A DNA stretch of 64,000 nucleotides from Dyella sp. GSA-30 (GTDB lineage: Bacteria > Pseudomonadota > Gammaproteobacteria > Xanthomonadales > Rhodanobacteraceae): contig NZ_AP027042.1 in assembly GCF_027924605.1 (NCBI RefSeq), positions 2,581,524 to 2,645,523 on the forward strand, written 5' to 3'. The notes beneath the pieces were generated by a model that was given only the letters and a program-made list of their open reading frames with translations, did no database searches and had not been told where the DNA came from. Below, piece by piece: positions 10,071 through 24,218 of this stretch (its first letter is position 1; every line of letters starts with the position of its first letter). The translations under genes were made by a program, and so were the position numbers.

Positions 10071-11669
10071 ATGCGTTCTAAGTTGCTCGCGGTGGCGATT
10101 GCTGCCGGTTTGGGCGTTGCCAGTTTCCACGTCGCCGCGGATCCGGCGCCGGCGAAGAAGACCCACAGTACGAGCCAGGACTCTCAAGCTGCATCCAAGA
10201 ACGCTGAAATCGAGGCGCTGAAAGCGCAGCTCGAAGCCTTGCAGGCCAAGGTCGCCGAGCTGGAGCAGCGCACCGACGCGCAGTCCGATATCAACGTTTC
10301 CACCGGCCAGAACATCGAAGCGGTGCAGAAGCAGGTAGTCGCGACCGACGCACAGGTCAAGAAGTCCAGCGACAAGCTTTCCTATAAGGGCGTGAACATC
10401 ACGCTGGGCGGCTTCCTCGCCGCCGAAACGATCTATCGCTCGCATTCTGAAGGCGCCGATATCGCATCGAGCTTCAGCGCGATTCCGTACAAGAACTCTT
10501 CGGTCGGCCGCACTGCCGAAACGCGCTTCAGCGCCCGTCAGAGCCGTATCTCGCTGCTCGCCCAGGGTGACGTGAGCCCGGATACGCATGTCGCCGGTTA
10601 TATCGAGGCCGACTTCATCGGTGGCGCGCAGACCGCCAACTCGAACGAGAGCAACTCGTTCAACCCGCGCGAGCGCAACGTCTACATGACGGTGGACTGG
10701 GACAACCCGGGCCTGCACCTGCTGGCCGGTCAGAACTGGTCGCTGCTCACGCTCAACAGCAAGGGCATCACTCCGCGTACCGAGCTGACCCCGCCGCAGA
10801 TCGACGCGCAGTACCTGCCGGGCTTCACCTGGGCTCGCCAGACGCAGATTCGCCTGGTCAAGGATTTCGACAAGACCTGGTGGCTGGGTATCTCGCTGGA
10901 AAACCCGCAGACCACGTTCGGCGTGAGCCCGAACCAGGCCAAGGCGCCGGTGCAGCCGATCTACAACATGCCGGCAGGTTCGGGTTTCGACTCGGCCAAC
11001 ACGCTGTCGCTTAACCACATCCCCGATGTGGTCATCAAGCTGGCTGCCGATCCGGGCTACGGTCACTATGAACTGTTCGCTTTGGGCCGCGCGTTCTACA
11101 ACCGCTACAACACGCCGGGCCAGGGCAACAGCAACCACGATGTCTACGGTGGCGGCTACGGTATCGGCCTCGTCCTGCCGTTGGTCGAGAAGGTCCTGGA
11201 CTTCCAGTTCTCCGGTATGCAGGGCCGCGGTATCGGTCGTTACGGCAGCGCGCAGATGCCTGACGTGACCTTCCGTCCGAATGGCTCGATCGCTCCGATC
11301 AAGGAAAACATGTTGCTGGCGGGTCTGACCTTGCACGCTACTCCGGATTTCGACATCTACGGCTTTGCCGGTCGTGAGCGTCAGACCAAGGAAGCGTTCA
11401 ACTACAACGGCATTGCACTCGGCCTGGGTAACCCGCTGTACAGCAATGCCGGTTGCGACATCGAAGGCGGCAGCTGCGTCGGTCAGAGCAAGCAGATCTG
11501 GCAGGGTACGGCTGGTTTCTGGTGGAAGTTCTACCAGGGCAAGTTCGGCCGCGCCCAGTTCGGTGCGCAGTACTCGCACACCGAGCGCGAAGCGTTCGAA
11601 GGTATCGGTGGCGCGCCGAAGGCCAAGGAAGACATGTTCTTCACCAGCTTCCGCTACTACCCGTTCTAA
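10071..11669 (+). CDS. outer-membrane porin with N-terminal coiled coil (DcaP-like)
   Basis: The 532-residue precursor has a signal peptide (about 1-23, ending VAADPA). A Gln/Ala-rich coiled coil follows (about 42-97, heptads around EIEALKAQLEALQAKVAELE), then a long beta-barrel from about 104 with alternating aromatic/polar strands. It ends in Phe (SFRYYPF), the outer-membrane assembly signal. Coiled coil plus barrel is the DcaP-type trimeric porin plan; DcaP proteins pass carboxylates and other anions. The Pho box at 9933 suggests uptake of phosphate or phosphorylated compounds, which is inference. OprP/OprO-type is the alternative. It ends at a strong terminator. Confidence 0.8.
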   Translation: MRSKLLAVAIAAGLGVASFHVAADPAPAKKTHSTSQDSQAASKNAEIEALKAQLEALQAKVAELEQRTDAQSDINVSTGQNIEAVQKQVVATDAQVKKSSDKLSYKGVNITLGGFLAAETIYRSHSEGADIASSFSAIPYKNSSVGRTAETRFSARQSRISLLAQGDVSPDTHVAGYIEADFIGGAQTANSNESNSFNPRERNVYMTVDWDNPGLHLLAGQNWSLLTLNSKGITPRTELTPPQIDAQYLPGFTWARQTQIRLVKDFDKTWWLGISLENPQTTFGVSPNQAKAPVQPIYNMPAGSGFDSANTLSLNHIPDVVIKLAADPGYGHYELFALGRAFYNRYNTPGQGNSNHDVYGGGYGIGLVLPLVEKVLDFQFSGMQGRGIGRYGSAQMPDVTFRPNGSIAPIKENMLLAGLTLHATPDFDIYGFAGRERQTKEAFNYNGIALGLGNPLYSNAGCDIEGGSCVGQSKQIWQGTAGFWWKFYQGKFGRAQFGAQYSHTEREAFEGIGGAPKAKEDMFFTSFRYYPF

Positions 11670-11709
11670 GCTTTACGGTTATCAGAAGGGAGTTCGACCC
11701 ATGGATGGA

Positions 11710-11742
11710 AAACGGCGGGCTTTGCCCGCCGTTTGCTTTTTT
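11710..11742 (+). terminator. Rho-independent terminator (bidirectional)
   Basis: AAACGGCGGGC (11710-11720) pairs with GCCCGCCGTTT (11724-11734) and is followed by a T-rich tract (TGCTTTTTT). On the minus strand the same stem is followed by TTTTCC, so it can also end the crotonase operon, whose last gene stops at 11756. Confidence 0.85.
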
Positions 11743-11755
11743 GCGGGAGCGCCGC

Positions 11756-12559
11756 TCAGGCGGCCAGGATGCTGGCCGCGTCTGACGGGGCGTTGCCGAA
11801 GCGCGGCTCGCGTTTTTCCAGAAATGCGGACATGCCTTCGCGTTGCGCCGGATGTCCGTAGAGCGCGTAATACATCTGCCGCTCGAAGCGCATGCCTGGC
11901 TCGAGGCCGACCTGCTCGGCCATGTTTACGCTGGTCCTGGCCATCTGCACGATGTCTCGCGGGTATCCGGCCACCTGGTGCGCGACGGCCTGGGCGGCCT
12001 TGGCCAGATCGCCGGCCGGCATGACGCGACTGACCAAGCCGATGCGCAAGGCTTCCTGCGCATCGATCAGGCGGCCGGTCAGTATCATGTCCATTGCCTG
12101 TGCACGACCGACCAGACGGGTGAGGCGCTGCGAGCCGCCGATTCCGGGGATGCAGCCAATCTTGACTTCCGGTTGCCCGAAGCGCGCGGTGTCGGCGGCA
12201 AGAATCAGGTCGCACATCATGGCCAGCTCGCAACCGCCGCCTAGCGCATCGCCGGATACAGCAGCCACCTTGGGTAATCGAAGCGCGGCGAACCGGTCCC
12301 AGTCGCCGAAAAAATCGGCAGCCTGCATCGAGATGTAGGATTGATCGGCCAGCTCGCCGATATCCGCTCCAGCGGAGAAGATCCGTTCGTTACCCGTGAT
12401 GATCAGGCAGCCGATGCGCGGATCGGCATCGAACGCGGTTGCTGCGGCCAGCAAATCCTTCATCAACTGCGTGTTCAGCGCATTGAGCCGACGAGGGCGG
12501 TTGAGGACGATGGTGGCAACGCCGGCATTTACTTCAGTCTCTATGGTTTCGTATCGCAT
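11756..12559 (-). CDS. enoyl-CoA hydratase/isomerase (crotonase) of the adenylation operon
   Basis: The 267-residue protein has the crotonase fold. The oxyanion-hole segments are FSAGADIGEL (61-70) and GDALGGGCELAMMCD (103-117). Both catalytic glutamates are present (Glu111, and Glu131 in FGQPEVKIG), so hydratase activity is expected; PaaF/EchA is the closest family type. Its start shares one base with the upstream stop (TAATG), making it the third coupled gene of the operon with the membrane flavoprotein and the adenylation enzyme. No other fatty-acid oxidation genes are nearby. It may therefore act on the thioester or acyl product of this pathway rather than in general beta-oxidation. Confidence 0.9.
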   Translation of the reverse strand: MRYETIETEVNAGVATIVLNRPRRLNALNTQLMKDLLAAATAFDADPRIGCLIITGNERIFSAGADIGELADQSYISMQAADFFGDWDRFAALRLPKVAAVSGDALGGGCELAMMCDLILAADTARFGQPEVKIGCIPGIGGSQRLTRLVGRAQAMDMILTGRLIDAQEALRIGLVSRVMPAGDLAKAAQAVAHQVAGYPRDIVQMARTSVNMAEQVGLEPGMRFERQMYYALYGHPAQREGMSAFLEKREPRFGNAPSDAASILAA

Positions 12560-13872
12560 TAGCTGTCCCAGATGGCCCCGAACGCGGGGATGCCGAGGCT
12601 TTCGAGATCGTGCACGACCCGGCGTGTCAGTTTCTGATTGGAGATCACGATGACGGCTTCGGCCGATGTTTCGCGTACTGCCTGCAAAGCCAGCATCGTG
12701 AGATCCGGTTTGCCTCTCTCGTTGGTGTCCCAGATCAGCGAGCTGTCCGTGTGTGCGAGGATTTCATCAACCAACGCATCGCCATATGTGTTGCGCGGTG
12801 AGCGCGTTGACCAGATCAAGCGGCACGGCACACGACCCTCGAACAGATGAGGAAGGATGGGGCCGATGCCGGAGCCTGTTCCAACGTAAACCACGCGACG
12901 AAACAGTACTTCGATCCTGGCTACGCCCGATGTGGTGATGCCCTTGACCCAGACCTTGTCGGGCGGGTTGTCGATGAACCGGCCGGTCCAGTCGCCGGCT
13001 CGACTGATCACCAGTCGATAACCGGCCTGGCCGGGGGTCGGGACATTGGCAAATGCGTGATATTGGCCAAAGGGCGTCAGGCTGATGGCGTTGGAGCTTC
13101 CGGAAAATGGGGTGTCGCCGTAGTCGAAGCGGGTCAACGCCACATGCTGCGATGGCCTGACGATGTTCACATCGACTTTTTTCAGGGTGAGCCATGGCGA
13201 TGCAATGGACAGCGTGAGCAGGCACAGCATCCAGAACGCGGGACTATGCAGCAGATCGCCATGGAAGTCGCTCACTATGGAGACGGTTTGGATCCAGAAC
13301 AGGATGAGCACGGACCAGCCCGCGATGCGATGCACCTGTTCAAATACATCGTGAAAACGTTGGCGCATCGGCGCCATGGCCGAAACAATCATGGCCACCA
13401 TCAGGCCCAGCATCAATGCACTCGACGCCAAAGTCAGATTCGATGGCGCGCTGGCGCCATTGAGCCGATTGGCGACCATGGCCCAAAGCAGGAACCCGAA
13501 CCAGGCGCTTCCTGCTACGGCGGAAGCCGAGTGCAGACCGCCAAAATGGAAGACCTTGCCTGCGCCCCAACGGATCCATAGAGGCCAGGTCGTAGGGATG
13601 CGTGTGGCAAGCCAGAACAATGCGTTGATGACGCGTTGCTGACGAATCAATATGGCGATGCTTAGATTGATCAGCGCCATGTCCGCAATGGATTGCAAGG
13701 CATAGCCTTGTTCTGCAGCCGAAGCCTGATTGAGCCAGCCGTTCGCGAATACGGCGATATTGACGATGGCGACCAGAAAGTTCAGTCGGCGATATTCCAT
13801 CAATGCGGGATGTCGCGTGACGCGTCGCCAATGTCTGGCGCCCATGGAAAGCTCGGATGCCTGCACGTTCAT
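12559..13872 (-). CDS. membrane flavoprotein, ferric-reductase-like (TmpA-like)
   Basis: The 437-residue protein has an N-terminal half with about six to seven membrane helices (roughly 31-50, 62-90, 107-132, 147-166, 183-200, 213-230). Paired histidines (His109/His114 and His174/His181) could bind haem, as in ferric reductases; VHRIAGW is reminiscent of them. The soluble C-terminal half has a flavin-like segment (YRLVISRAGDWTGRFI) and a nucleotide-binding motif, VVYVGTGSGIGPILPHLF (328-345). From memory, this resembles TmpA of Aspergillus and the C-terminal half of the adenylation-fused fungal protein TmpB. Coupled by ATGA to the adenylation gene and TAATG to the crotonase. Likely a membrane oxidoreductase; substrate unknown. 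Confidence 0.7.
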   Translation of the reverse strand: MNVQASELSMGARHWRRVTRHPALMEYRRLNFLVAIVNIAVFANGWLNQASAAEQGYALQSIADMALINLSIAILIRQQRVINALFWLATRIPTTWPLWIRWGAGKVFHFGGLHSASAVAGSAWFGFLLWAMVANRLNGASAPSNLTLASSALMLGLMVAMIVSAMAPMRQRFHDVFEQVHRIAGWSVLILFWIQTVSIVSDFHGDLLHSPAFWMLCLLTLSIASPWLTLKKVDVNIVRPSQHVALTRFDYGDTPFSGSSNAISLTPFGQYHAFANVPTPGQAGYRLVISRAGDWTGRFIDNPPDKVWVKGITTSGVARIEVLFRRVVYVGTGSGIGPILPHLFEGRVPCRLIWSTRSPRNTYGDALVDEILAHTDSSLIWDTNERGKPDLTMLALQAVRETSAEAVIVISNQKLTRRVVHDLESLGIPAFGAIWDS

Positions 13873-15566
13873 CCGGCGACTCTCGCATCGTTGGCTTGCA
13901 GATGCTTGTTCGCCATGGCCAGCAGCAGGCGCTTGTCCAGCTTGCCGCGCGAGGTGTGCGGCAAGGCATCGAGCGGAAGCAGCATGACGGGTACGTAATA
14001 GTAAGGCAGCGCGGTAGCGACGCTGTGCAGCGCTCCGTTGACGTCGATCGAAGCGGGTGTGGCGAAGCTGACCAAGTGACGATCGTTGAGCTTGAGCGTG
14101 ACGGCCTGTTTGCAGCCGGCGCTTTCGAGCACGGAGGTGACGGCCTGCAATTCGACACGGAAGCCCCGGATTTTCACGACGTCGTCGGTTCTGCCCAAAT
14201 GCTCCAGTTCGCCGTCAATCGTCCAGCGCCCCAGATCACGTGTGCGAAACATCATGTGGCCGGGCCGGAAGGGGTCGGGGCGATAGCGCTCTGTAGTCAG
14301 CGATGAGTTGTCCAGGTAACCGGCGGTAACGCAATCGCCACCCGCCCACATTTCGCCCGTTGCGCCCATGGGCAGCGCATTGAGATCGTCATCCAGTATG
14401 TAAACGGTATTGTTTGGCGTCGGACGGCCAATGGACAGAACCGGCTTGGCTGGATGATGTTTCTCCATGGTATTGACGATGGTGGTCTCGGTCGGGCCGC
14501 AGGAGTTGTAGAAATGGCAGAACGACGACCACGCATCCGCCAGCGGGCGAGGGCACGGCTCTCCTGCAACGGCGACGCTCTCGATGTGGCGGCATCGTTC
14601 GATATCCAGCGATGCGAGAATGGACGGTGTCGCAATGAGTATGTCGACTTTTTCCGCGGTGTCCTGAATGGACTTGTCGCGGATCACCAGCGACGCTCCA
14701 TTGGACAAGGCTCCCAACGTCTCCCACGCCGCCATATCGAAGGCGATGGACAGGACCTGGCCGACTTTCACGCCAGGACGCATGCCAAGATCGCCGGGTG
14801 ACGTCTGCAGGATATTGCACAGATTCCGATGGGTCACTCGCACCCCATTGGGGACGCCGGTGGTTCCTGAGGTAAAGAGAATGATCGCCACATCATCAGG
14901 ATGCGCGACGTCTTTCCTATCGTCCGGCAACGGCGTGGAGCTTGCCTCGGCCATGACATCTTCGATGCAGATGATCTGTCGCTGGGCATCGGCCGGAAGG
15001 TTCGCGCTCAGCTCGCGCATGGTCAGAATAACCTTTGCATTTACGGTCGCGGAGATGTGCTTGAGCATGTCCGGGGGCGCGACGCCGACGTGCTGCGGCA
15101 CATAGGCGGCGCCAAGACGCAGTGTCGCGACGATACCGACCAGCATGGGCAACGAGCGCTTCAAAAAAAGGCAAACCGCGTCGCCTCTCCGCACGCCGCT
15201 GTCGTACAGACGTGTTGCCAGTCTGTCCGCGGCAGCGTCGAGCTGCGCGTATGTCAGACTTTTTCCAAGATATGTCGCCGCGATGGCGTGCGGCTGGGTT
15301 CTGGCTTGATAAGCAATGGCCTCGGAAATCGTGGAGAAGCGCGGCTGCACGCTTGCACCCAAGCCGAAGGCGTGGAATTGCTCGCGATCCCACGGAGAAA
15401 GTTCGCGGAAGGGATCTGCTGATCGGTCTAATGGGAAGAAAGCGACATTGGGATGGCCGACATGGTCAGCTCGTCGGTCGCCGGCCGTTTCGACGGTGGT
15501 GGCCGCATGAACATGCTTGTCGGATAGGCGCAAAGGCTGCGCGAGTTGCGCACGTCGAGTGCTCAT
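13869..15566 (-). CDS. stand-alone NRPS-like adenylation enzyme
   Basis: The 565-residue ANL-superfamily protein would activate a carboxylate as its acyl-AMP. Core motifs: A3 FTSGTTGVPNG (231-241, with Asn where Lys is usual), A4 FDMAAWE (276-282), A5 YNSCGPTETT (353-362), A7 RTRDLGR (441-447), A8 GRTDDVVKIRGFRVEL (458-473) and A10 HTSRGKLDK (537-545, catalytic Lys542 present). An N-terminal extension of about 75 residues precedes the fold. No carrier, condensation or thioesterase domain is present, and no carrier protein lies nearby. The start follows ACAGGAG. First gene of a coupled operon with the membrane flavoprotein and crotonase. The substrate cannot be read by eye. Confidence 0.85.
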   Translation of the reverse strand: MSTRRAQLAQPLRLSDKHVHAATTVETAGDRRADHVGHPNVAFFPLDRSADPFRELSPWDREQFHAFGLGASVQPRFSTISEAIAYQARTQPHAIAATYLGKSLTYAQLDAAADRLATRLYDSGVRRGDAVCLFLKRSLPMLVGIVATLRLGAAYVPQHVGVAPPDMLKHISATVNAKVILTMRELSANLPADAQRQIICIEDVMAEASSTPLPDDRKDVAHPDDVAIILFTSGTTGVPNGVRVTHRNLCNILQTSPGDLGMRPGVKVGQVLSIAFDMAAWETLGALSNGASLVIRDKSIQDTAEKVDILIATPSILASLDIERCRHIESVAVAGEPCPRPLADAWSSFCHFYNSCGPTETTIVNTMEKHHPAKPVLSIGRPTPNNTVYILDDDLNALPMGATGEMWAGGDCVTAGYLDNSSLTTERYRPDPFRPGHMMFRTRDLGRWTIDGELEHLGRTDDVVKIRGFRVELQAVTSVLESAGCKQAVTLKLNDRHLVSFATPASIDVNGALHSVATALPYYYVPVMLLPLDALPHTSRGKLDKRLLLAMANKHLQANDARVAG

Positions 15567-15873
15567 TTTGTGGACTCCTGTCTCGTTGATGGACTGCTTG
15601 ACAGGTTTTCGGTCCGGCCGCCGAGTCGGTTACGCTTATGGCATGTAGGCGCTGGCGAAGCGTCTTTGTAAGAAAGCGACTACTTCTCGCGGAGACGTGC
15701 ATAGGCTCCGGCGGTTTCGCTTATGTTGGAGCGTGGCCTCTCGAGATCGAGGCCGCGGTGAAGGAAAAGACCGCGTTTTTCAGCCTGAAAGACAAGTCTT
15801 CATCGGTATTTTTCCGCCGGGCAACCACGGCTTTGCGACGCTTTTTCACTGGGCACCGCACGCATGCGAAGCG
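15567..15873. other. 307-base gap upstream of the adenylation operon
   Basis: The gap separates the outer-membrane factor (stop 15874) from the adenylation gene (start 15566); both are on the minus strand. It should hold the operon promoter, but I see no confident -35/-10 pair. It contains GGCCTC (15735-15740)/GAGGCC (15749-15754). It also has a plus-oriented terminator-like hairpin, CGCGGT (15754-15759)/ACCGCG (15770-15775) followed by TTTTT. An open frame on the plus strand here has no recognisable protein character. Confidence 0.5.
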
Positions 15874-17346
15874 TCAAGGCGCGGGCGCCGGTCCTTCCGC
15901 AAGCGCTGTGACGTTCCATCCACCGCCCAATGCCCGGATCAGGTCCACGCTTGCCTGCAGTCTCCGTGTGCGTACCAACTCTGCCGTGCGTTCCGCCTGC
16001 AATGCGCTGGTTTGAGCGCTGGTCACGTCGAGATAACTCACCACGCCTTCCTTGTAGCGGTTGGTGGCAAGTGTCTGCGATTCCTTGGCGGCGGCGGCGG
16101 CGGTGTCTTCCTGCATCGCTTCGCGGCCGAGCTCCTGCAATAGCGACAGGTCGTCTTCGACCTGCTGGAATGCATGCAGTACGACAGCGCGATACTGGCC
16201 CGACGATGCGTCGAGCTCTGCCCGCGCCTGGGCCAGACGTGCGCGCCGTAGACCACCGTCGAAAAGATTCAGCGAAGCGATGGGCCCCAACGCCCAGAAG
16301 CGGTTACCCACGCTCAACAGGTTGCCATGGCCGGTATCCTGCCAGCCGAATGCCGCGCTGAGGCTGAGTGTGGGGAAGAAAGCCGCTCGCGCTACGCCGA
16401 TATTGGCGTTGGCCGCGAACGTTCGTCGTTCCGCCGAGGCGATATCGGGGCGTCGCTGCAGCAGCGTCGAAGGAACGCCAAGAGGGATAGCGGGAATGGC
16501 GAGGGATTCGGCTTGCTCGGGGAGCGAAAAATTCGACGCCGGTTCGCCGATCAACGCCGCGATCGCGTGCACGGTGAGCGCGCGCTGTGCGCGCAGCTCG
16601 GAGGTTTGCGCCTGCGCGTCGGCGTATTGCGCATTCGCGCGCGCAACATCCAGGCCCGATGACACGCCGCCCTCCATGCGCTGCTCTGTCATATCCTGGC
16701 TTTGCCGGTAGGCATCGAGCGAGTCGCGCAGGATTCGCGCCTGCATGTCGTAGCCGCGCAGCTTGATGTACAGGTCGGCCAGTTGCGCCTGCAGACTGAG
16801 CTGTGCCGATGCAAGGTCCGCCGCTGCAGCATCGCTCTGCGCGTGTCCTGCGGCGATTTCGTTGCGGATGCGTCCCCACAGATCCAGTTCGTAGTCGGCG
16901 GAAAACTGCAGCGTATCGCCGTCGTATTCGTTGGGCTGGTTGGCACCGCGTGTCGGGCGGTTATCGGACTGGCGGTTGTTGGTCGGGCTGGCCGATACGC
17001 CGGCATGCGGTACGGCGCTGGCATGTAATTGCTGCTCGAAGGCACGCGAGGCTTCGTAGCGGGCCAGCGCGACGGCGATGTTCGGATTGTTCTTGTTGAG
17101 CCGGTCCTCCAGTGTGTTCAGGCCCGGATCGCCATAGACCGTCCACCAGTCGCCACGCGAGGCGGTATCGCCCGGCGCTGCGATAGCCCAGCCATCGGGC
17201 GTGGCCGCACCCTGGTACGCATCAGGCAGCTTGCCCATGTCCGGACGCTGATAGGTCGGGGCGAGCGAGCAGCCGCCCAGCGTCAACAGCGTGGCTAGCG
17301 ACAAGGCGCGCCATGGCAAGCCTGCCGATTCAGTTCGCCTTGGCAT
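15874..17346 (-). CDS. RND efflux outer-membrane factor (NodT/OprM family lipoprotein)
   Basis: This is the outer-membrane channel of a tripartite efflux pump. The 490 residues begin with a lipoprotein signal (TLLTLGGCS, acylated Cys26). The two repeated OEP domains follow, with long Ala/Gln-rich helices (for example QDMTEQRMEGGVSSGLDVAR and the equivalent NRYKEGVVSYLDVTSAQ) that form the periplasmic tunnel. The start overlaps the adaptor gene end by 17 bases. It is the last gene of a permease-adaptor-channel operon. Confidence 0.92.
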   Translation of the reverse strand: MPRRTESAGLPWRALSLATLLTLGGCSLAPTYQRPDMGKLPDAYQGAATPDGWAIAAPGDTASRGDWWTVYGDPGLNTLEDRLNKNNPNIAVALARYEASRAFEQQLHASAVPHAGVSASPTNNRQSDNRPTRGANQPNEYDGDTLQFSADYELDLWGRIRNEIAAGHAQSDAAAADLASAQLSLQAQLADLYIKLRGYDMQARILRDSLDAYRQSQDMTEQRMEGGVSSGLDVARANAQYADAQAQTSELRAQRALTVHAIAALIGEPASNFSLPEQAESLAIPAIPLGVPSTLLQRRPDIASAERRTFAANANIGVARAAFFPTLSLSAAFGWQDTGHGNLLSVGNRFWALGPIASLNLFDGGLRRARLAQARAELDASSGQYRAVVLHAFQQVEDDLSLLQELGREAMQEDTAAAAAKESQTLATNRYKEGVVSYLDVTSAQTSALQAERTAELVRTRRLQASVDLIRALGGGWNVTALAEGPAPAP

Positions 17347-18514
17347 GACCTTGCTCCTGGGGCTGGGATGCTTCCTGCACTTGATCGCCCTGCATCAGCG
17401 AATCGGAGGGGTGGTCGATGATGCGATCGCCGCGCACAAGACCGTGATCGATCTGCAGGCGATCGCCCAAATCCATGGCAATGTGCACATCGCGAAGCTC
17501 TACGCGATGGTTTTTGCCGATAACCGCGATCTGTGGGCCTGCGGCGCGGAACAGCAAGGTGGTGGCCGGCACGGTAACGGTGCGCGGGTCGCTGCTGAGC
17601 GGCAGATGCACTTCGGCGAAATCGCCGGGGAGGAGATCGTTGCGCGGATTGTCTACGCGAAACTGCGCCAGCAGTGTGCCGGAAGATTGATTGATCGCGC
17701 TGGAGTTGCCTATCAGTGTGCCGGTGACGGTTTCGCCGCCGTGGCCCAGGACGGTGAGCTCCACTTGCATGCCCGGTTTGATCGATGACGCGTAGCCCTG
17801 TGGCACTTCCGCATACAGGCGCATCTTGCTGGTATCGGCCACGGTGAAAAGCGGCTGTCCGTTTTCGTTGTTTGCGGAGATCAGGTCGCCGATATCCGTA
17901 TGCCGGGTAGTCACCGTGCCGTCGAACGGCGCGGTAATTCGCTTGAACGATTCCAGCGCCGCGATGCGATCGACATCCGCCTTGGCGGCGAGCACGTTGG
18001 CGCGTGCGCTCTCGGCCTCACTGGCTTTTTCGTCGGACTCCTGTTTGGACACCGAGCGCGATTGCAGCAAGTTTTGCCAGCGCGTTGCAGTGGTCTCGGC
18101 AAGACGCACGTTCGCCTGCGCGCGAACGAGCCCGGCCTTGGCCTGTTCATATTGCTGATCCAGTTCGGGCGTATCGATCACGCCCAGCACATCGCCGGCC
18201 TTGACCTTGTCGCCGATATCGGCGTTCCAGCTTTTCAGGTAGCCGCCGACACGCGCATGGATCGGTGCGCTGATCCATGCGTCGAGATGGCCGGGCAGGG
18301 TCATGCTTTGCGCGCCGCCGCTGGTGGCCGCCTCGATCGTCTGCACGGTCGGCACCAGTTGCGCGTCGGTCCATTTGACCAGGTTGCGCGATTCGACGCT
18401 GCGCAGGGAAAGCCCGATTACCACCGCGGCAACGGCCAGGCCCAACCCGATGGTGATGGCCAGGCGAAGGCGTGGCGGGCGCGTGGGTGTCGCGGCGATG
18501 GCGTCATGCGACAT
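17330..18514 (-). CDS. RND efflux periplasmic adaptor (HlyD/MFP family)
   Basis: The membrane-fusion subunit joins the permease to the outer-membrane channel. From the ATG at 18514 it has 394 residues: an uncleaved N-terminal membrane segment (about 17-37), a lipoyl/barrel-sandwich half (GGYLKSWNADIGDKVKAG), an alpha-hairpin (residues about 115-185) and beta-barrel and membrane-proximal domains. I prefer this start to an in-frame Met 18 codons upstream because the extension (MAAPRRRLPHLVY...) overlaps the permease and is atypical. The gene overlaps the permease end by 11 bases. Confidence 0.92.
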   Translation of the reverse strand: MSHDAIAATPTRPPRLRLAITIGLGLAVAAVVIGLSLRSVESRNLVKWTDAQLVPTVQTIEAATSGGAQSMTLPGHLDAWISAPIHARVGGYLKSWNADIGDKVKAGDVLGVIDTPELDQQYEQAKAGLVRAQANVRLAETTATRWQNLLQSRSVSKQESDEKASEAESARANVLAAKADVDRIAALESFKRITAPFDGTVTTRHTDIGDLISANNENGQPLFTVADTSKMRLYAEVPQGYASSIKPGMQVELTVLGHGGETVTGTLIGNSSAINQSSGTLLAQFRVDNPRNDLLPGDFAEVHLPLSSDPRTVTVPATTLLFRAAGPQIAVIGKNHRVELRDVHIAMDLGDRLQIDHGLVRGDRIIDHPSDSLMQGDQVQEASQPQEQGHAKAN

Positions 18515-21500
18515 GGGGAGTATCTCCGAGTAGACGAGGTGTGGCAGGCGCCGGCGCGGTGCGGCCATGCACGATCGAGAAGATCACCGGTACGAACAGC
18601 AGCGTGGCAAACGTGGCGAACAGCAGGCCGCCGATGACCGCTCGTCCCAGAGGCGAGTTCTGTTCCTGGCTGAGCGCCATCGGCAACATGCCGATGACCA
18701 TCGCCAGCGCCGTCATGCATACCGGACGGAATCGCGTGAAGCCGGCTTCCAATGCGGCCTTGAGCGGATCGCCGTGTTCGGCAAGCCGTTCGCGGCAGAA
18801 GCTCACTACGAGAATCGAGTTGGCGGTAGCGACACCCATGCACATGATCGCCCCGGTCAATGCTGGCACCGACAGGCTGGTATGGCTGAGGAACAACATC
18901 CATACGATGCCGGCGAGCGCCGCGGGCAATGCGGTAATGATGACGAACGGGTCGAGCCACGATTGGAAATTGACCACAATCAGCAGATAGATCAGCACGA
19001 TTGCGCCGACGAGGCCGAAGATAAGGCCGCCGAAGGCTTCGTTCATGGTGCCGACCTGGCCGTGCAGGCTCACCAGCGTACCTTTGGGCCGGGTCTGGGC
19101 GAAATCGTTCAGCACCTTCTGCACGTCGTGCGCGACGCCGCCGAGATCGCGCCCCTGAATCGCTGCGTAGATGTCGTAGGAAGGCATGATGTTGTAGTGC
19201 GAGACCACCGCTTCGCTGGGGCCGCGCGTGAACGACGCCAGGCCGCCGAGAATCTGTGTCGCGTGATCATTGGCCGAGGTCACCGGCAAGCCGGTCAGAT
19301 CGGCCATCGAGTCCATCAGGTATTGCGGCGTCGCCGCGACGATCGCGTACGACACGCCATTCTTGGGGTTCAGCCAGAACGCCGGCGCCACCTGCGAACT
19401 GCCGGCCAACGAAGCGACCATGCTGTTGGTGACATCGCGTTCGGTAATGCCCAGACTGTCGGCACGGATACGATCTACTTTCACGTTCAACTGTGGGTAG
19501 CTCGAACTCTGTTGCAGGCGCACGTCGGCGATGCCGGGAATCGCGCGCATCTTCTTCATGATCTCCATCGCGTAGTCTTCGTTGGCGATCCGATCGCGGC
19601 CGGCAATGGACACGTCCAGCGGGGCGGGCGCGCCAAAGTTGAGAATCTGGCTGGTCATGTCCGCGGGAAGGAACGCAAATTGCGTACCCGGGAACTGGCG
19701 CGGCAGTTTCTCGCGCAGCGTCTTGACGAAATCGGCGCTGGGCTGGTGATCGCTCTTGAGGACGATCTGAATGTCGCCATCCTGCGGTCCGATGGTGCCA
19801 CTGCTGTTGTAAACCAGGTTGGTGCCGCTCAACGGCAGGCCGATGTTGTCGATCACGGTGTCGAGCTGATCGGGCGGAATCACCTGCCGCACGGCGCGCT
19901 CGATGCGATCGAACTCCGCCGCGGTCTCTTCGACGCGTGTGCCCATTGGTGCGCGCACGTGCATCGCAATCGAGTCCGAATCGATTGCAGGGAAGAAATC
20001 GCGCCCCAGTGTGGGTACCAGTGCGAACGACACCAGCACGAAAGCCAGGAAGCCCATGATGAAGCGTTTGCGGTTATCCAATGCCACCGTCAGCGTGGCG
20101 TAGTAGACGTCGCGTATGCGCGTGAAGCGTTGTTCGAAGCCGTGTTGAAAGCGCACCAGGGCATGCACGAATGCATTGCGCTTGCGCGGTGGGTGTTGAT
20201 CGCCCTCGTGGTGGTTGATGTAAGGATCTTCCGGATGGTCGCCTGGGCCGTTTTCGGTGCGATGCGGCTTGAGCAGGAACATCGCCAGCGTCGGTACCAG
20301 GGTGCGCGACAGCACGAACGAGGAGGCCATGGCGAAGATCACCGCCAGCGCCATCGGCCGGAACAGGAAGCCGGCGATGCCGTTTAGCATGAACATCGGC
20401 ACGAAGACGATGCAGATACACAGCAGCGAAACGAAGGCGGGCGTCACGATCTGCTTGGCGCCATCCATGATGGCCGTCATCACGTCCTTGCCCTGTTCGA
20501 GATGCCAGTTGATGTTCTCGATCGTCACCGTAGCGTCGTCGACGAGAATACCCACCGCCAAGGCCAGGCCGCCGAGCGTCATCACATTGAGGGTCTGGCC
20601 GAAGGTGGCGAGCAGGGCGATGGCCGACAGGATCGATAATGGAATTGACAGCGCGATGATGACGGTCGAACGCCAGCTGCCCAGGAACAACAGGATCATC
20701 ACCGACGTCAGCAAGGCCGCGATGATGCCTTCGCGAGCCACCGAGCTGATCGCCGCCTTGACGAACAGCGACTGGTCGGCAAGCAGGTTCATCTTCAGTG
20801 ATTTCGGTTGCGTCTCCTGGATCAATGGCAACAGCTTCTTGATGCCGGCTACCACGTCGAGCGTCGATGCATTGCCATTCTTCAACGCCGGCATCAGTAC
20901 GGCGCGTTTGCCGTCCACGCGCACGATGTTGTTCTGCGGCGGCGCGCCGTCACGAACATGGGCCACATCGCCAATGGTGATGGTCGCGCCGTTGACGGTC
21001 TTGATCGGCAGGCGATTGAGTTCGTCGATCAACGTAGGGCTATTGTTGAGCTGAACGTGATATTCGTAGGTGCCGATCTTGGCGGTGCCGACCGGAATGA
21101 TCTGGTTCTGCGCGTTGAGCGCATTGCCGACGTCCTGTGCGGAAAGGCCTTTGGCCGCCAGTGCTTGCGGGTTGAGATCCAGCGTGACCTGCTTCTGCTT
21201 GCCGCCGTAAGGCGTGGGAATCGCCACGCCGGGCACGGAGATCAGCGTGGGGCGCATGAAGTTCTGCGCGATGTCGCGGATAGTGGCTTCGGACAGTTCA
21301 GAGCTGGACAGCGCCATTTGCAGAACAGGTACGGTCGAAGCGTTGTAGTTGAGGATCTGCGGTGGCGTGATACCTGGCGGCATCTGCTTGACCACCGTCT
21401 GCGAGATCGAGGTGACCTGCGCGGTGGCGGTGCGAATGTCCACACCCGGTTGGAAAAAGATCTTCACGATACCCACGCCGGGCAGCGACTGCGATTCGAT

Positions 21501-21743
21501 ATGCTCGATATCGTTAACCGCCGTGGTCAGCTGGCGCTCGTAGTAATAGATCACACGGCCGGACATCTGGTCTGGCGGCAGGCCGTTATAGCTCCACACC
21601 ACGCTGATAACCGGAATGCCGATGTTTGGAAAAATGTCGGTCGGCGTGCGTAACGCTGCCAACGGGCCGGCGATCAGGATGACCAGGGCCAGCACGATGA
21701 AGGTGTACGGCTTGGAAAGGGCGATGCGGACGAGCGCTAGCAT
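18504..21743 (-). CDS. RND efflux permease (AcrB/MdtB/CusA superfamily)
   Basis: The proton-driven inner-membrane pump has 1079 residues and twelve membrane helices in two homologous halves with two large periplasmic loops each. The proton-relay Asp pair is present in helix 4 (VGILVDDATVTIENIN, near residue 400). The motif VVNFQSWLDPFVIITALPAALAGI marks the second half. An insertion rich in His, Glu and Asp (HRTENGPGDHPEDPYINHHE, about 490-515) lies in the central cytoplasmic loop. The drug specificity is not obvious, and the branch looks like the HAE-1/HAE-3 borderline rather than classical AcrB. First gene of the pump operon, with a possible response-regulator box just upstream. Confidence 0.93.
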   Translation of the reverse strand: MLALVRIALSKPYTFIVLALVILIAGPLAALRTPTDIFPNIGIPVISVVWSYNGLPPDQMSGRVIYYYERQLTTAVNDIEHIESQSLPGVGIVKIFFQPGVDIRTATAQVTSISQTVVKQMPPGITPPQILNYNASTVPVLQMALSSSELSEATIRDIAQNFMRPTLISVPGVAIPTPYGGKQKQVTLDLNPQALAAKGLSAQDVGNALNAQNQIIPVGTAKIGTYEYHVQLNNSPTLIDELNRLPIKTVNGATITIGDVAHVRDGAPPQNNIVRVDGKRAVLMPALKNGNASTLDVVAGIKKLLPLIQETQPKSLKMNLLADQSLFVKAAISSVAREGIIAALLTSVMILLFLGSWRSTVIIALSIPLSILSAIALLATFGQTLNVMTLGGLALAVGILVDDATVTIENINWHLEQGKDVMTAIMDGAKQIVTPAFVSLLCICIVFVPMFMLNGIAGFLFRPMALAVIFAMASSFVLSRTLVPTLAMFLLKPHRTENGPGDHPEDPYINHHEGDQHPPRKRNAFVHALVRFQHGFEQRFTRIRDVYYATLTVALDNRKRFIMGFLAFVLVSFALVPTLGRDFFPAIDSDSIAMHVRAPMGTRVEETAAEFDRIERAVRQVIPPDQLDTVIDNIGLPLSGTNLVYNSSGTIGPQDGDIQIVLKSDHQPSADFVKTLREKLPRQFPGTQFAFLPADMTSQILNFGAPAPLDVSIAGRDRIANEDYAMEIMKKMRAIPGIADVRLQQSSSYPQLNVKVDRIRADSLGITERDVTNSMVASLAGSSQVAPAFWLNPKNGVSYAIVAATPQYLMDSMADLTGLPVTSANDHATQILGGLASFTRGPSEAVVSHYNIMPSYDIYAAIQGRDLGGVAHDVQKVLNDFAQTRPKGTLVSLHGQVGTMNEAFGGLIFGLVGAIVLIYLLIVVNFQSWLDPFVIITALPAALAGIVWMLFLSHTSLSVPALTGAIMCMGVATANSILVVSFCRERLAEHGDPLKAALEAGFTRFRPVCMTALAMVIGMLPMALSQEQNSPLGRAVIGGLLFATFATLLFVPVIFSIVHGRTAPAPATPRLLGDTPHVA

Positions 21744-21768
21744 GTGCGGCGCTTCGATACGAGCTTGT

Positions 21769-21784
21769 GTGACGCGAACGTGAC
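21769..21784 (-). promoter_or_regulatory. direct repeat, candidate response-regulator box
   Basis: GTGAC occurs twice (21769-21773 and 21780-21784) with an 11-base period. On the minus strand it reads GTCACGTTCGCGTCAC, 26 bases before the permease start codon. OmpR-family regulators often bind direct repeats with this period, and such a regulator is encoded about 1.8 kb upstream. The link is inference. Confidence 0.35.
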
Positions 21785-21958
21785 AACCGATGGGTTATCC
21801 GTGCGGGTGAACCATGAGCGGGTCATCGGCTTTATGTCTGGCGTGCTTCGGGCGGAAGTACCCAGGGCCATGATGGGTTTCGATGCTTGTGGAAACCTTT
21901 TGGGTTGCGGGTGCGTGGTTCTTGTTTTTTTTGTTGTTGCTTGGCTGTCGAGCAAGAG

Positions 21959-22095
21959 CCCCCCTCACCCCGACCCTCTCCCCCGGCAGAGCCAGGGGAG
22001 AGGGAGCCGGACTGAAGTAGCCTCAATGCTTCGCACTTGCGCAATTTCGCTCCCTCTCCCTGGCTCTGCCGGGGGAGAGGGCTGGGGTGAGGGGG
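21959..22095. repeat. long intergenic inverted repeat, copy 2
   Basis: Same arms as copy 1 (CCCCCTCACCCCGACCCTCT ... GGGCTGGGGTGAGGGGG). Its centre (GCTTCGCACTTGCGCAATTT) is the reverse complement of the centre of copies 3 and 4, so this copy lies in the opposite orientation. The right flank continues GCAAGGAGCGATGCGAAGCG, which recurs beside copy 3. Confidence 0.85.
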
Positions 22096-22147
22096 CGCAA
22101 GGAGCGATGCGAAGCGAGCCTACAGTGACGATCTCGCGTCTCGCCGT

Positions 22148-23542
22148 TCAACCAGGCAAGGCCTGCATCCGAATCCGCACCAACAACCCATGCCCGGCAG
22201 GAGATTCGAGCAATTCGATCTGCGCATCATGCAATTGCACCGCACGCTGCACGATGCTGAGGCCCAGGCCAAATCCCTGTGATGCGCTCTCCGTCTCCCG
22301 ATGAAACGGCTGAAACACCGCTTGCCGCCGTTCGGCTGGAATACCCGGACCGTCGTCGCAGATATCGATTACCGCCAGCGTATCGACGCGCATCACGGCG
22401 ATATCGACCTGGCCGCCCTGCGGCGCATAGCGCAGGGCGTTCTCGATCAGATTGCGGAACATGGCCGTCAGCGCCACCTCGTGGCCGGATACTCGCAGTT
22501 CGCCTTCGTCGTGATTCAGGCTGAGGGCGATGTCTTTCTCGGCAATCGTCGGGGCGAGTTCCTCGACTGCCTCGGTAGCAATCGTAATCAGGTCCAATGG
22601 CATGCGGCGTTGCGACGCAGCGCCGGCTTCCAGGCGAGCGATGGCCAGAATCTGTTCGATGCGCCGGCCGAGCCTGGCCAGGCTGCGCTGCGCATTCTTC
22701 AAAGTGAACTCGACTTCGCTGGCATTGTCCGCGATGAGTGCGCTTTCCAGATGGATCATGGTCGCCGCCAGCGGCGTGCGTAGCTCATGCGCTACATCGC
22801 TGGCAAAGCGATGCTCACGTTCGATCGTGTCTTCCAGTCGTTCCAGTTGCTGGTTGAGCGTCAGGATCAGCGGCTTGATCTCTTGCGGCGTACGTTCGAG
22901 CGAGATCGGTTGACGACTGCCTGGCGTTCGCCTGGCCAGCAGGCGTGTCAACAGATCGAGCGGACGCAGGCCGCGCTTCACCGCCAGGCTCACCAGGATC
23001 GCGAGCAACGGTAGCCCGATCAGCAGGGGCAGGCTGTGCTCAAGGATCAGACCGCGGGTGATATCGCGCCGGTTGTCGTAACGCTCGCCGATGCGGATCA
23101 CCAGCCCGAAGCGGTTCTTGAGCGTAAAAATGCGCCAGCGATGATCGCCATGGTAAAGGTCGCTAAAGCCGCGCTCAGCCTCGGACGGCGGAGCCAGGTC
23201 GGCCAGGTTCGCCGTGGCGGCAATCAGTTTGCCGCGCGGGTCGTAGGCCTGGAAACCGACCTCGGGTTCGTAGTTGCGTGGATGCACCGAAACAACCACG
23301 CTGCCGCGTTGCACATCGCTAGGCAGGGTGAAGCCGGACGACGAAGGCGCGGGAAAGGAGGTCTGGCTGCTTGCGATCAGACTGCCCAGCGTGCGACCTG
23401 CCTGTGCCAGGCGACCATCGAGCAGCTGATTCATCTCGCGCTGTTCGCGCCGGTAGCTGATGGTCCCCAGCGGAATCAGCACGACGACCAGGACGGCGAT
23501 GATCAGCCAGGTCAGGCGCGTGCGCAGGCTGGCCGTTTTCAT
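22148..23542 (-). CDS. sensor histidine kinase (QseC/PmrB type)
   Basis: The 464-residue inner-membrane kinase has helix 1 at about 10-30, a periplasmic sensor domain (31-167) and helix 2 at about 168-188, then a HAMP-like linker. The H-box is FASDVAHELRTPL (phospho-acceptor His252), the N-box NLIENALRYAP, and the G-boxes DDGPGIP and GFGLGLSIV. All catalytic motifs are intact. It starts 10 bases after the response-regulator gene. Signal unknown; QseC- and PmrB-like kinases sense metals, cationic peptides or small molecules. The RND operon downstream on the same strand is a likely target. Confidence 0.92.
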   Translation of the reverse strand: MKTASLRTRLTWLIIAVLVVVLIPLGTISYRREQREMNQLLDGRLAQAGRTLGSLIASSQTSFPAPSSSGFTLPSDVQRGSVVVSVHPRNYEPEVGFQAYDPRGKLIAATANLADLAPPSEAERGFSDLYHGDHRWRIFTLKNRFGLVIRIGERYDNRRDITRGLILEHSLPLLIGLPLLAILVSLAVKRGLRPLDLLTRLLARRTPGSRQPISLERTPQEIKPLILTLNQQLERLEDTIEREHRFASDVAHELRTPLAATMIHLESALIADNASEVEFTLKNAQRSLARLGRRIEQILAIARLEAGAASQRRMPLDLITIATEAVEELAPTIAEKDIALSLNHDEGELRVSGHEVALTAMFRNLIENALRYAPQGGQVDIAVMRVDTLAVIDICDDGPGIPAERRQAVFQPFHRETESASQGFGLGLSIVQRAVQLHDAQIELLESPAGHGLLVRIRMQALPG

Positions 23543-23552
23543 GGCGTGTCGT

Positions 23553-24218
23553 TCATTTGGGGTCTCGCGGGATCATATAGCCGATACCTCGGACCGTATG
23601 GATCACATCGGCGCTCAGCTTGCGTCGCAGCCAGTGCACCTGCACTTCGATGGCGTTGCGATCGACCACGGTATCGAAGCCGTAGACGGAATTCTCCAGC
23701 GCTTCGCGGCGCACGATGCGGCCTGCACGCTCCATCAGGATACGCAGCACCGCAAACTCGCGGCGAGTGAGGGTGACACTTTTGCCACGGAAGGCGACTT
23801 CCATGGTCGCCAGATCCAGTCGCAGGCCGCCAACTTCCACGAGGTTGTCAGCAAGGCCTTGTGCGCGCCGTGTCAGCGAGCGGATGCGCGCCGCCAGTTC
23901 GCCAAGATGGAACGGCTTGACCAGATAGTCGTCCGCACCCAGATCGAGTCCACGGATGCGCGTTTCCAACGCGTCGCGCGCGGTCATGACAAGGATGGGG
24001 GTCTTTACGCCGTCTCTCCGTGCTTCGGCCAATACATCCAGGCCATCCTTGCCGGGCAGGCCAAGATCCAGCAGCACCAGGTCGATCGAGCCGTCGCTCA
24101 TCGCTGCCATCGCCTGTCGGCCGTCTTTGAGCCAGGTCACCGCATACGACTGATGCTCAAGCGCGTGCTTGATCGCTTCTCCCAGTTCGATGTCGTCTTC
24201 CACCAAAAGTATGTGCAT
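23553..24218 (-). CDS. OmpR-family response regulator (QseB/PmrA type)
   Basis: The 221 residues form a receiver domain with the acidic pocket LVEDD (5-9), phospho-acceptor Asp51 (LVLLDLGLPG) and Lys in DDYLVKPFHLGELAAR, then an OmpR-type winged helix (LTRREFAVLRILMER ... VDRNAIEVQVHWLRRKL). It heads the two-gene operon with the kinase and acts on DNA in the cytoplasm. Genes for its probable regulon (RND pump) follow on the same strand. Confidence 0.94.
   Translation of the reverse strand: MHILLVEDDIELGEAIKHALEHQSYAVTWLKDGRQAMAAMSDGSIDLVLLDLGLPGKDGLDVLAEARRDGVKTPILVMTARDALETRIRGLDLGADDYLVKPFHLGELAARIRSLTRRAQGLADNLVEVGGLRLDLATMEVAFRGKSVTLTRREFAVLRILMERAGRIVRREALENSVYGFDTVVDRNAIEVQVHWLRRKLSADVIHTVRGIGYMIPRDPK

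Follow-up and report, generated by a model that had tools for sequence, protein, structure and literature searches.

The question raised by this locus is whether bacteria possess a counterpart of the fungal TmpB proteins that is divided over separate genes. TmpL and TmpB are one-piece proteins in which an adenylation (A) domain without thiolation (T) or condensation (C) domains is joined to six transmembrane (TM) helices and to a FAD/NAD(P) module (PMC2766074, PMC4804170). In the window analysed here (a stretch of 64,000 nucleotides of contig NZ_AP027042.1 from Dyella sp. GSA-30), three intact open reading frames of the minus strand, called genes A, T and C in the following, encode a lone adenylation enzyme, a membrane reductase and a crotonase. 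It is considered quite probable that this trio is a unit of the TmpB type. Its components are the following, and the overlaps of four and one bases given in a preliminary description of this DNA agree with the junctions ATGA and TAATG:

13869..15566, minus strand: gene A, lone amino-acid adenylation enzyme of the nonribosomal peptide synthetase (NRPS) type, 565 aa, pocket code DMWIAASIVK
12559..13872, minus strand: gene T, six-TM FAD/NAD(P) membrane reductase with the NADPH oxidase (NOX)/ferric-reductase fold, TmpA-like, 437 aa
11756..12559, minus strand: gene C, crotonase of the enoyl-CoA hydratase type, 267 aa, catalytic E111 and E131 intact
13869..13872, minus strand: A/T overlap, ATGA, 4 bases
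12559..12559, minus strand: T/C overlap, TAATG, 1 base

The adjacency of A, T and C goes far beyond chance. A first scan for relatives of T, with one genome per species, recovered 36 loci at 64-75% identity, nearly all of them from Rhodobacterales and related alphaproteobacteria, with lone cases outside that group in Halomonas and Rhizobium; profile searches of whole genomes brought in further loci, from gammaproteobacteria, at about 45-56% identity. A adjoins T in 47 of the 52 distinct T loci and C is present in 40, always on the same strand. The trio is kept together in many marine bacteria and reaches down to about 50% identity, in Alphaproteobacteria and Gammaproteobacteria (several families of the latter included). 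For three of the 47 A-T pairs a gap of ~220 bases was computed, which is an artefact of a long N-terminal extension of T, and the genes touch. Because A stands at 47 and C at 40 of the 52 loci, the A-T pair is the core of the unit and C its near-constant companion. The preliminary description had proposed this survey, and had named as refuting its proposal a trio confined to one strain together with a T that aligns just to ordinary ferric reductases or cytochromes; this outcome did not occur, as the trio is widespread and T constitutes a distinct family.

Gene A corresponds to what had been described, an NRPS-like adenylation protein. It matches PF00501 (1.4e-66) and TIGR01733 (317.5 bits, cut-off 317.4), and scans of domain libraries gave the AMP-binding match only, with no carrier, condensation or release domain. 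Among solved structures, the adenylation domains of linear gramicidin synthetase and of gramicidin synthetase 1 stand closest to it, and both the CGPTET and the RGK motif are present. The stretch ahead of the adenylation domain reads like a condensation-adenylation linker, which suggests that A descends from a full NRPS module. In a tree, the A proteins of the trios form a clade far from the adenylation domains of NRPSs in the same genomes (100/100). The pocket code was read by alignment to a PheA segment whose recovered code, DAWTIAAICK, matches the textbook one. The A protein of the window has DMWIAASIVK and nearly all relatives, down to 48% identity, have DMWIAASI(I/V)K; the substrate is probably the same amino acid in all trios. 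An alpha-amino acid is expected because the pocket residues Asp (for the alpha-amino group) and Lys (for the carboxylate) are kept. D, W, A, I and K also occur in the code for Phe, and the substrate may be hydrophobic, perhaps aromatic.

Gene A gives a first link with the fungi. The conserved pocket residues reported for TmpB (Asp235, Trp239, Gly324, Ile330 and Lys517, PheA numbering; PMC4804170) all have their equivalents in the A protein of the window. Related to this, the A domains of stand-alone bacterial enzymes of Hahella chejuensis and Salinispora have been found to nest in the fungal NPS12 clade (Bushley and Turgeon, PMC2823734); that study covered A domains only, and the gene neighbourhoods of these enzymes are not described in it. 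Gene T gives a second link, since GSGIGP, found in 49 of 53 T sequences, is the NAD motif published for TmpL (PMC2766074). The third comes from gene C. The preliminary description regarded the crotonase as an addition relative to the fungi, and this has to be given up: an enoyl-CoA hydratase/isomerase gene adjoins tmpB in Aspergilli (PMC4804170), and for this reason the crotonase is a shared feature. Taken with TmpB of A. nidulans, TmpL of Alternaria and A. fumigatus and NPS12 of Cochliobolus, the trio has in common the A domain without T or C domains, the six-TM ferric-reductase-like FAD/NAD(P) protein with GSGIGP, the pocket Asp, Trp, Gly, Ile and Lys and, in the case of tmpB of Aspergilli, the enoyl-CoA hydratase neighbour. 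On the other hand, it differs in its bacterial host, in having two genes where fungi have a fused one and in a T protein that has no RLHFD. The TmpA of A. nidulans is also similar in being a stand-alone membrane oxidoreductase whose gene lies beside that of an adenylate-forming enzyme (afeA). However, AfeA is 4CL-like (acyl-CoA-ligase-like) whereas A is NRPS-like, and tmpA and afeA are inversely oriented (PMC4804170). In the literature no bacterial report was found of TmpA, of a stand-alone A protein with a ferric reductase or of the GSGIGP peptide.

Several points weigh against reading the trio as a bacterial TmpB. The FAD motif of TmpL, RLHFD (PMC2766074), is not found as such in T, where the nearest stretch is RLVIS. 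In the window and in its relatives A and T are separate, overlapping genes, and no fused A-T protein was present among the open frames of the T matches (446 to 551 aa). The authors of the TmpL work hold that the family is restricted to filamentous fungi (PMC2766074). Five of the 52 T loci are without a neighbouring A gene (three cyanobacterial plasmids, one Pantoea plasmid and one gammaproteobacterium), and their T proteins resemble, by analogy, the stand-alone TmpA; 12 are without an adjacent C, in one of which (L027) the contig stops just past T. Besides, the placement of the window T within Rhodobacterales is weakly supported. What stands of the earlier proposal of a split counterpart is carried by the architecture, GSGIGP, the A-domain residues and the published phylogeny of A domains; the likeness of T to fungal TmpA/TmpB is one of published motif and architecture.

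The match of the T protein to Ferric_reduct is weak (E 0.0025, below the cut-off), it has no NCBIfam match, and a search of the PDB with the T sequence alone gave no match. A profile of the T family brought NOX2 first (E 6.5e-4), and no TmpA-named chain was present among the PDB matches. The AlphaFold2 model, made from an alignment of 35 relatives (pLDDT 82, pTM 0.75), has six TM helices and, after them, an FAD/NAD domain. The best full-length solved match is the bacterial NADPH oxidase SpNOX (8qt6; Foldseek 6.5e-13; Z 23.6, rmsd 4.8 over 365 residues, 13% identity); the Foldseek matches to flavohaemoglobin and FNR proteins were set aside, as they concern only the FAD/NAD module. T ends in WDS, and W435, near the end of the model, appears to align at the place of the C-terminal aromatic residue of SpNOX. 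With its six-TM haem domain and FNR-like FAD/NAD(P) module of homologous fold, T belongs to the FRD superfamily in the wide sense.

Within this superfamily, the haem ligands set T apart. H114, H174, E178 and H181 are invariant in the 53 T sequences. In the profile alignment H181 stands opposite His209 of NOX2 (inner haem), whereas A/I194 is opposite His222 (outer haem); residues 127 and 128 are never His across the 53 sequences, and H114 would lie, by analogy with the usual NOX topology, at the cytoplasmic start of TM3. Bacterial NOX proteins are defined by four-His, FAD and NADPH signatures (PMC5676040). SpNOX has two haems and these signatures, whereas in T just H114 and H181, of the four haem-ligating His of TM3 and TM5, occupy ligand positions, and HAFAN/HSFAN and GSGIGP stand in place of the FAD and NADPH signatures; the bacterial-NOX FAD motif occurs only in three cyanobacterial relatives. 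T is thus predicted to hold no more than one classically bound haem, with ligands on the cytoplasmic side only. The preliminary description of a multi-helix membrane protein with candidate haem histidines and an NAD/flavin C-terminus is sound for the helices and the FAD/NAD domain, and the haem part has to be reduced to that one classical haem at most. STEAP and YedZ, single-haem members of the FRD superfamily, are similar to T in having one classically bound haem at most; however, they keep the surface-side His pair (NOX2 115/222; PMC3591440), a pattern absent from T, which keeps the cytoplasm-proximal pair instead. Since the His of the outer haem and the NOX signatures are lacking, T most likely exports no electrons and reduces something on the cytoplasmic side.

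These features bear directly on the first alternative, in which T would be an ordinary reductase of ferric iron or ferric siderophores and A, like the stand-alone VibE, would provide or alter a building block of a siderophore. The NOX/FRE fold and the weak Ferric_reduct similarity fit with it, as does the neighbourhood of some homologues: the T-only homologue of the Pantoea plasmid lies a few kb from IucA/IucC and siderophore-interacting protein genes, and TonB receptors adjoin two gammaproteobacterial T loci. Nevertheless, T is without the surface-proximal haem His through which members of the FRD superfamily pass electrons to metal outside the cell (PMC3591440), the conserved unit contains no carrier or condensation gene, the flanking genes are variable and mostly non-siderophore, and the crotonase goes with the trio. 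A role in iron acquisition is therefore held to be improbable.

Gene C is the intact crotonase that had been described (PF00378, 5.2e-69), and its catalytic residues E131 and E111 are conserved in every relative that can be read at these positions (38 E, 1 gap). In a tree with 16 further crotonases, taken from these genomes and from related ones, the C proteins of the trios come out as a single clade (99/95, 98% of bootstrap trees) apart from the others, and C is dedicated to the trio rather than a random housekeeping hydratase. A second alternative starts from this gene and takes the trio as a catabolic operon for a particular carboxylic acid, in which A would be an acyl- or aminoacyl-CoA ligase, T the electron-transfer partner and C the beta-oxidation hydratase. 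The family closest to C is that of generic short-chain enoyl-CoA hydratases (PRK05862; 342 bits against a cut-off of 396), and ANL enzymes often function as CoA ligases, both of which speak for such an operon. However, no acyl-CoA dehydrogenase, thiolase or transporter gene recurs in the unit, A has without exception the pocket Asp that goes with alpha-amino-acid substrates, and T is a reductase module of the NAD(P)H type, with the result that catabolism is judged as unlikely as iron acquisition. Least probable, by a small margin, is that T is a NOX-like producer of reactive oxygen species in redox signalling, tuned or fed by A and C and reflected in the oxidative-stress and altered-redox-balance phenotype of TmpL, for although the best fold match of T is a bacterial NADPH oxidase and oxygen-radical levels are altered in TmpL mutants (PMC2766074), T does not have the four-His, FAD and NADPH signatures of bacterial NOX (PMC5676040), and the conserved A pocket and crotonase catalytic residues point to a metabolite.

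For a split counterpart of TmpB/TmpL/NPS12 the following chemistry can be proposed. A would adenylate one particular hydrophobic (perhaps aromatic) alpha-amino acid, and the activated acyl group would pass to a small thiol such as CoA, or to a carrier supplied in trans. T would draw on NAD(P)H and, by way of FAD and a single inner haem, reduce the activated amino acid or some derivative of it; this would happen on the cytoplasmic side of the membrane, and neither iron nor oxygen outside would be the acceptor. Finally, C would hydrate or isomerise an alpha,beta-unsaturated thioester, giving a small amino-acid-derived metabolite; in another order, an oxidised thioester would be hydrated first. 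The signal or lipid-like nature that the preliminary description proposed for the metabolite is conjectural. The order and nature of these steps are tentative and may well be otherwise. As for the whole reading, that is, a split bacterial TmpB/TmpL/NPS12 counterpart acquired horizontally and with this chemistry, we lean slightly towards accepting it. A wider idea is speculative and at present rather unlikely: TmpA-like proteins would be a new functional class of the NOX/ferric-reductase fold, membrane reductases with a single inner haem that act, at the cytoplasmic face, on an amino acid previously activated by an enzyme and so give carrier-free NRPS-like chemistry, shared by bacteria and fungi through old gene exchange.

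With respect to its origin, T was found in one of 147 genomes of the family, which is that of Dyella sp. GSA-30 itself. The C protein of the window is sister to that of Palleronia (tree support 99/94), A pairs weakly with the Palleronia A, and T is placed, again weakly, among the alphaproteobacterial sequences. The GC content of A and T, both overall and at third codon positions (GC3), is slightly under that of most neighbour genes. The simplest reading of these sequences would be that the trio was gained horizontally from a Rhodobacterales-like source. The neighbouring porin, looked up for an empty-site comparison of the insertion, had no close match in 15 related genomes. Dyella sp. GSA-30 is rich in NRPS, with 27 adenylation-domain matches, some of them in open frames of 13392 and 8277 aa; the NRPS regions lie on contig C1 at about 3.45-3.49 Mb, 3.83-3.87 Mb and 3.97-3.98 Mb, and the A gene of the trio sits apart from them.

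Downstream of the trio, one further element has to be considered:

11710..11734, plus strand: strong 11-pair hairpin, its T-run on the plus strand, that terminates the convergent porin gene

The preliminary description gave the three genes a shared terminator, which holds just in part. Because the T-run of this hairpin sits on the plus strand, it serves mainly the porin gene; on the trio's own strand just TTTT follows the stem, and it is possibly weakly bidirectional. No sigma-70-like promoter was found in 11600-15900. Directly upstream of the trio and on the same strand (window 15874-24218) there is an RND efflux operon (RND pump, fusion protein and outer-membrane factor) together with a two-component system, a region that is not conserved in the relatives of the trio.

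The relatives show some variation in their surroundings. In most alphaproteobacterial loci DUF6502 and DUF5666 genes lie divergently upstream of A (clusters X2 and X3, in 29 and 27 loci, respectively), and the N-terminus of the DUF6502 protein reads like a helix-turn-helix (L003:4562-6279 and most Rhodobacterales loci), so that a regulator pair is possible; as a core member of the unit the pair was rejected, there being no DUF6502 match in the Dyella sp. GSA-30 genome. In the gammaproteobacterial genus g717 the trio is present in all three sampled genomes with a match. Its A protein (L135:6842-8989, L137 and L138) carries ~150 extra N-terminal residues with no Pfam match, its T also has a long N-terminal extension, and a solute-binding-protein-like gene comes after C. 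The T-only homologues of Nostocales plasmids (L040, L041 and L042), at about 30% identity, have no A or crotonase nearby; a conserved gene comes after each of them, and in the single case examined it is HlyD-like. Behind the gammaproteobacterial T-only homologue (L056:8664-11636) come genes for a DUF4331 protein and a cytochrome c', so that the fold of T has other partners here. Two single copies are interrupted, by a stop within T in an alphaproteobacterial genome (L034) and by a split A in Halomonas sp. SpR8 (L037), which reflects decay or assembly error.

TmpA and TmpB control asexual development in Aspergillus, and how fit fungal pathogens are also depends on them. With a version in three genes carried by marine bacteria that can be cultured (Ruegeria, Leisingera, Pseudovibrio and Roseibium), the search for the substrate and product would become practicable. 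If T is homologous to fungal TmpA/TmpB, the statement that the TmpL family is exclusive to filamentous fungi falls. In addition, T points to an enzyme of the NOX fold minus the outer half of its electron path, which, if true, would be a new use of this fold. The trio is real and conserved, and it is probably a variant of the poorly understood TmpB kind.

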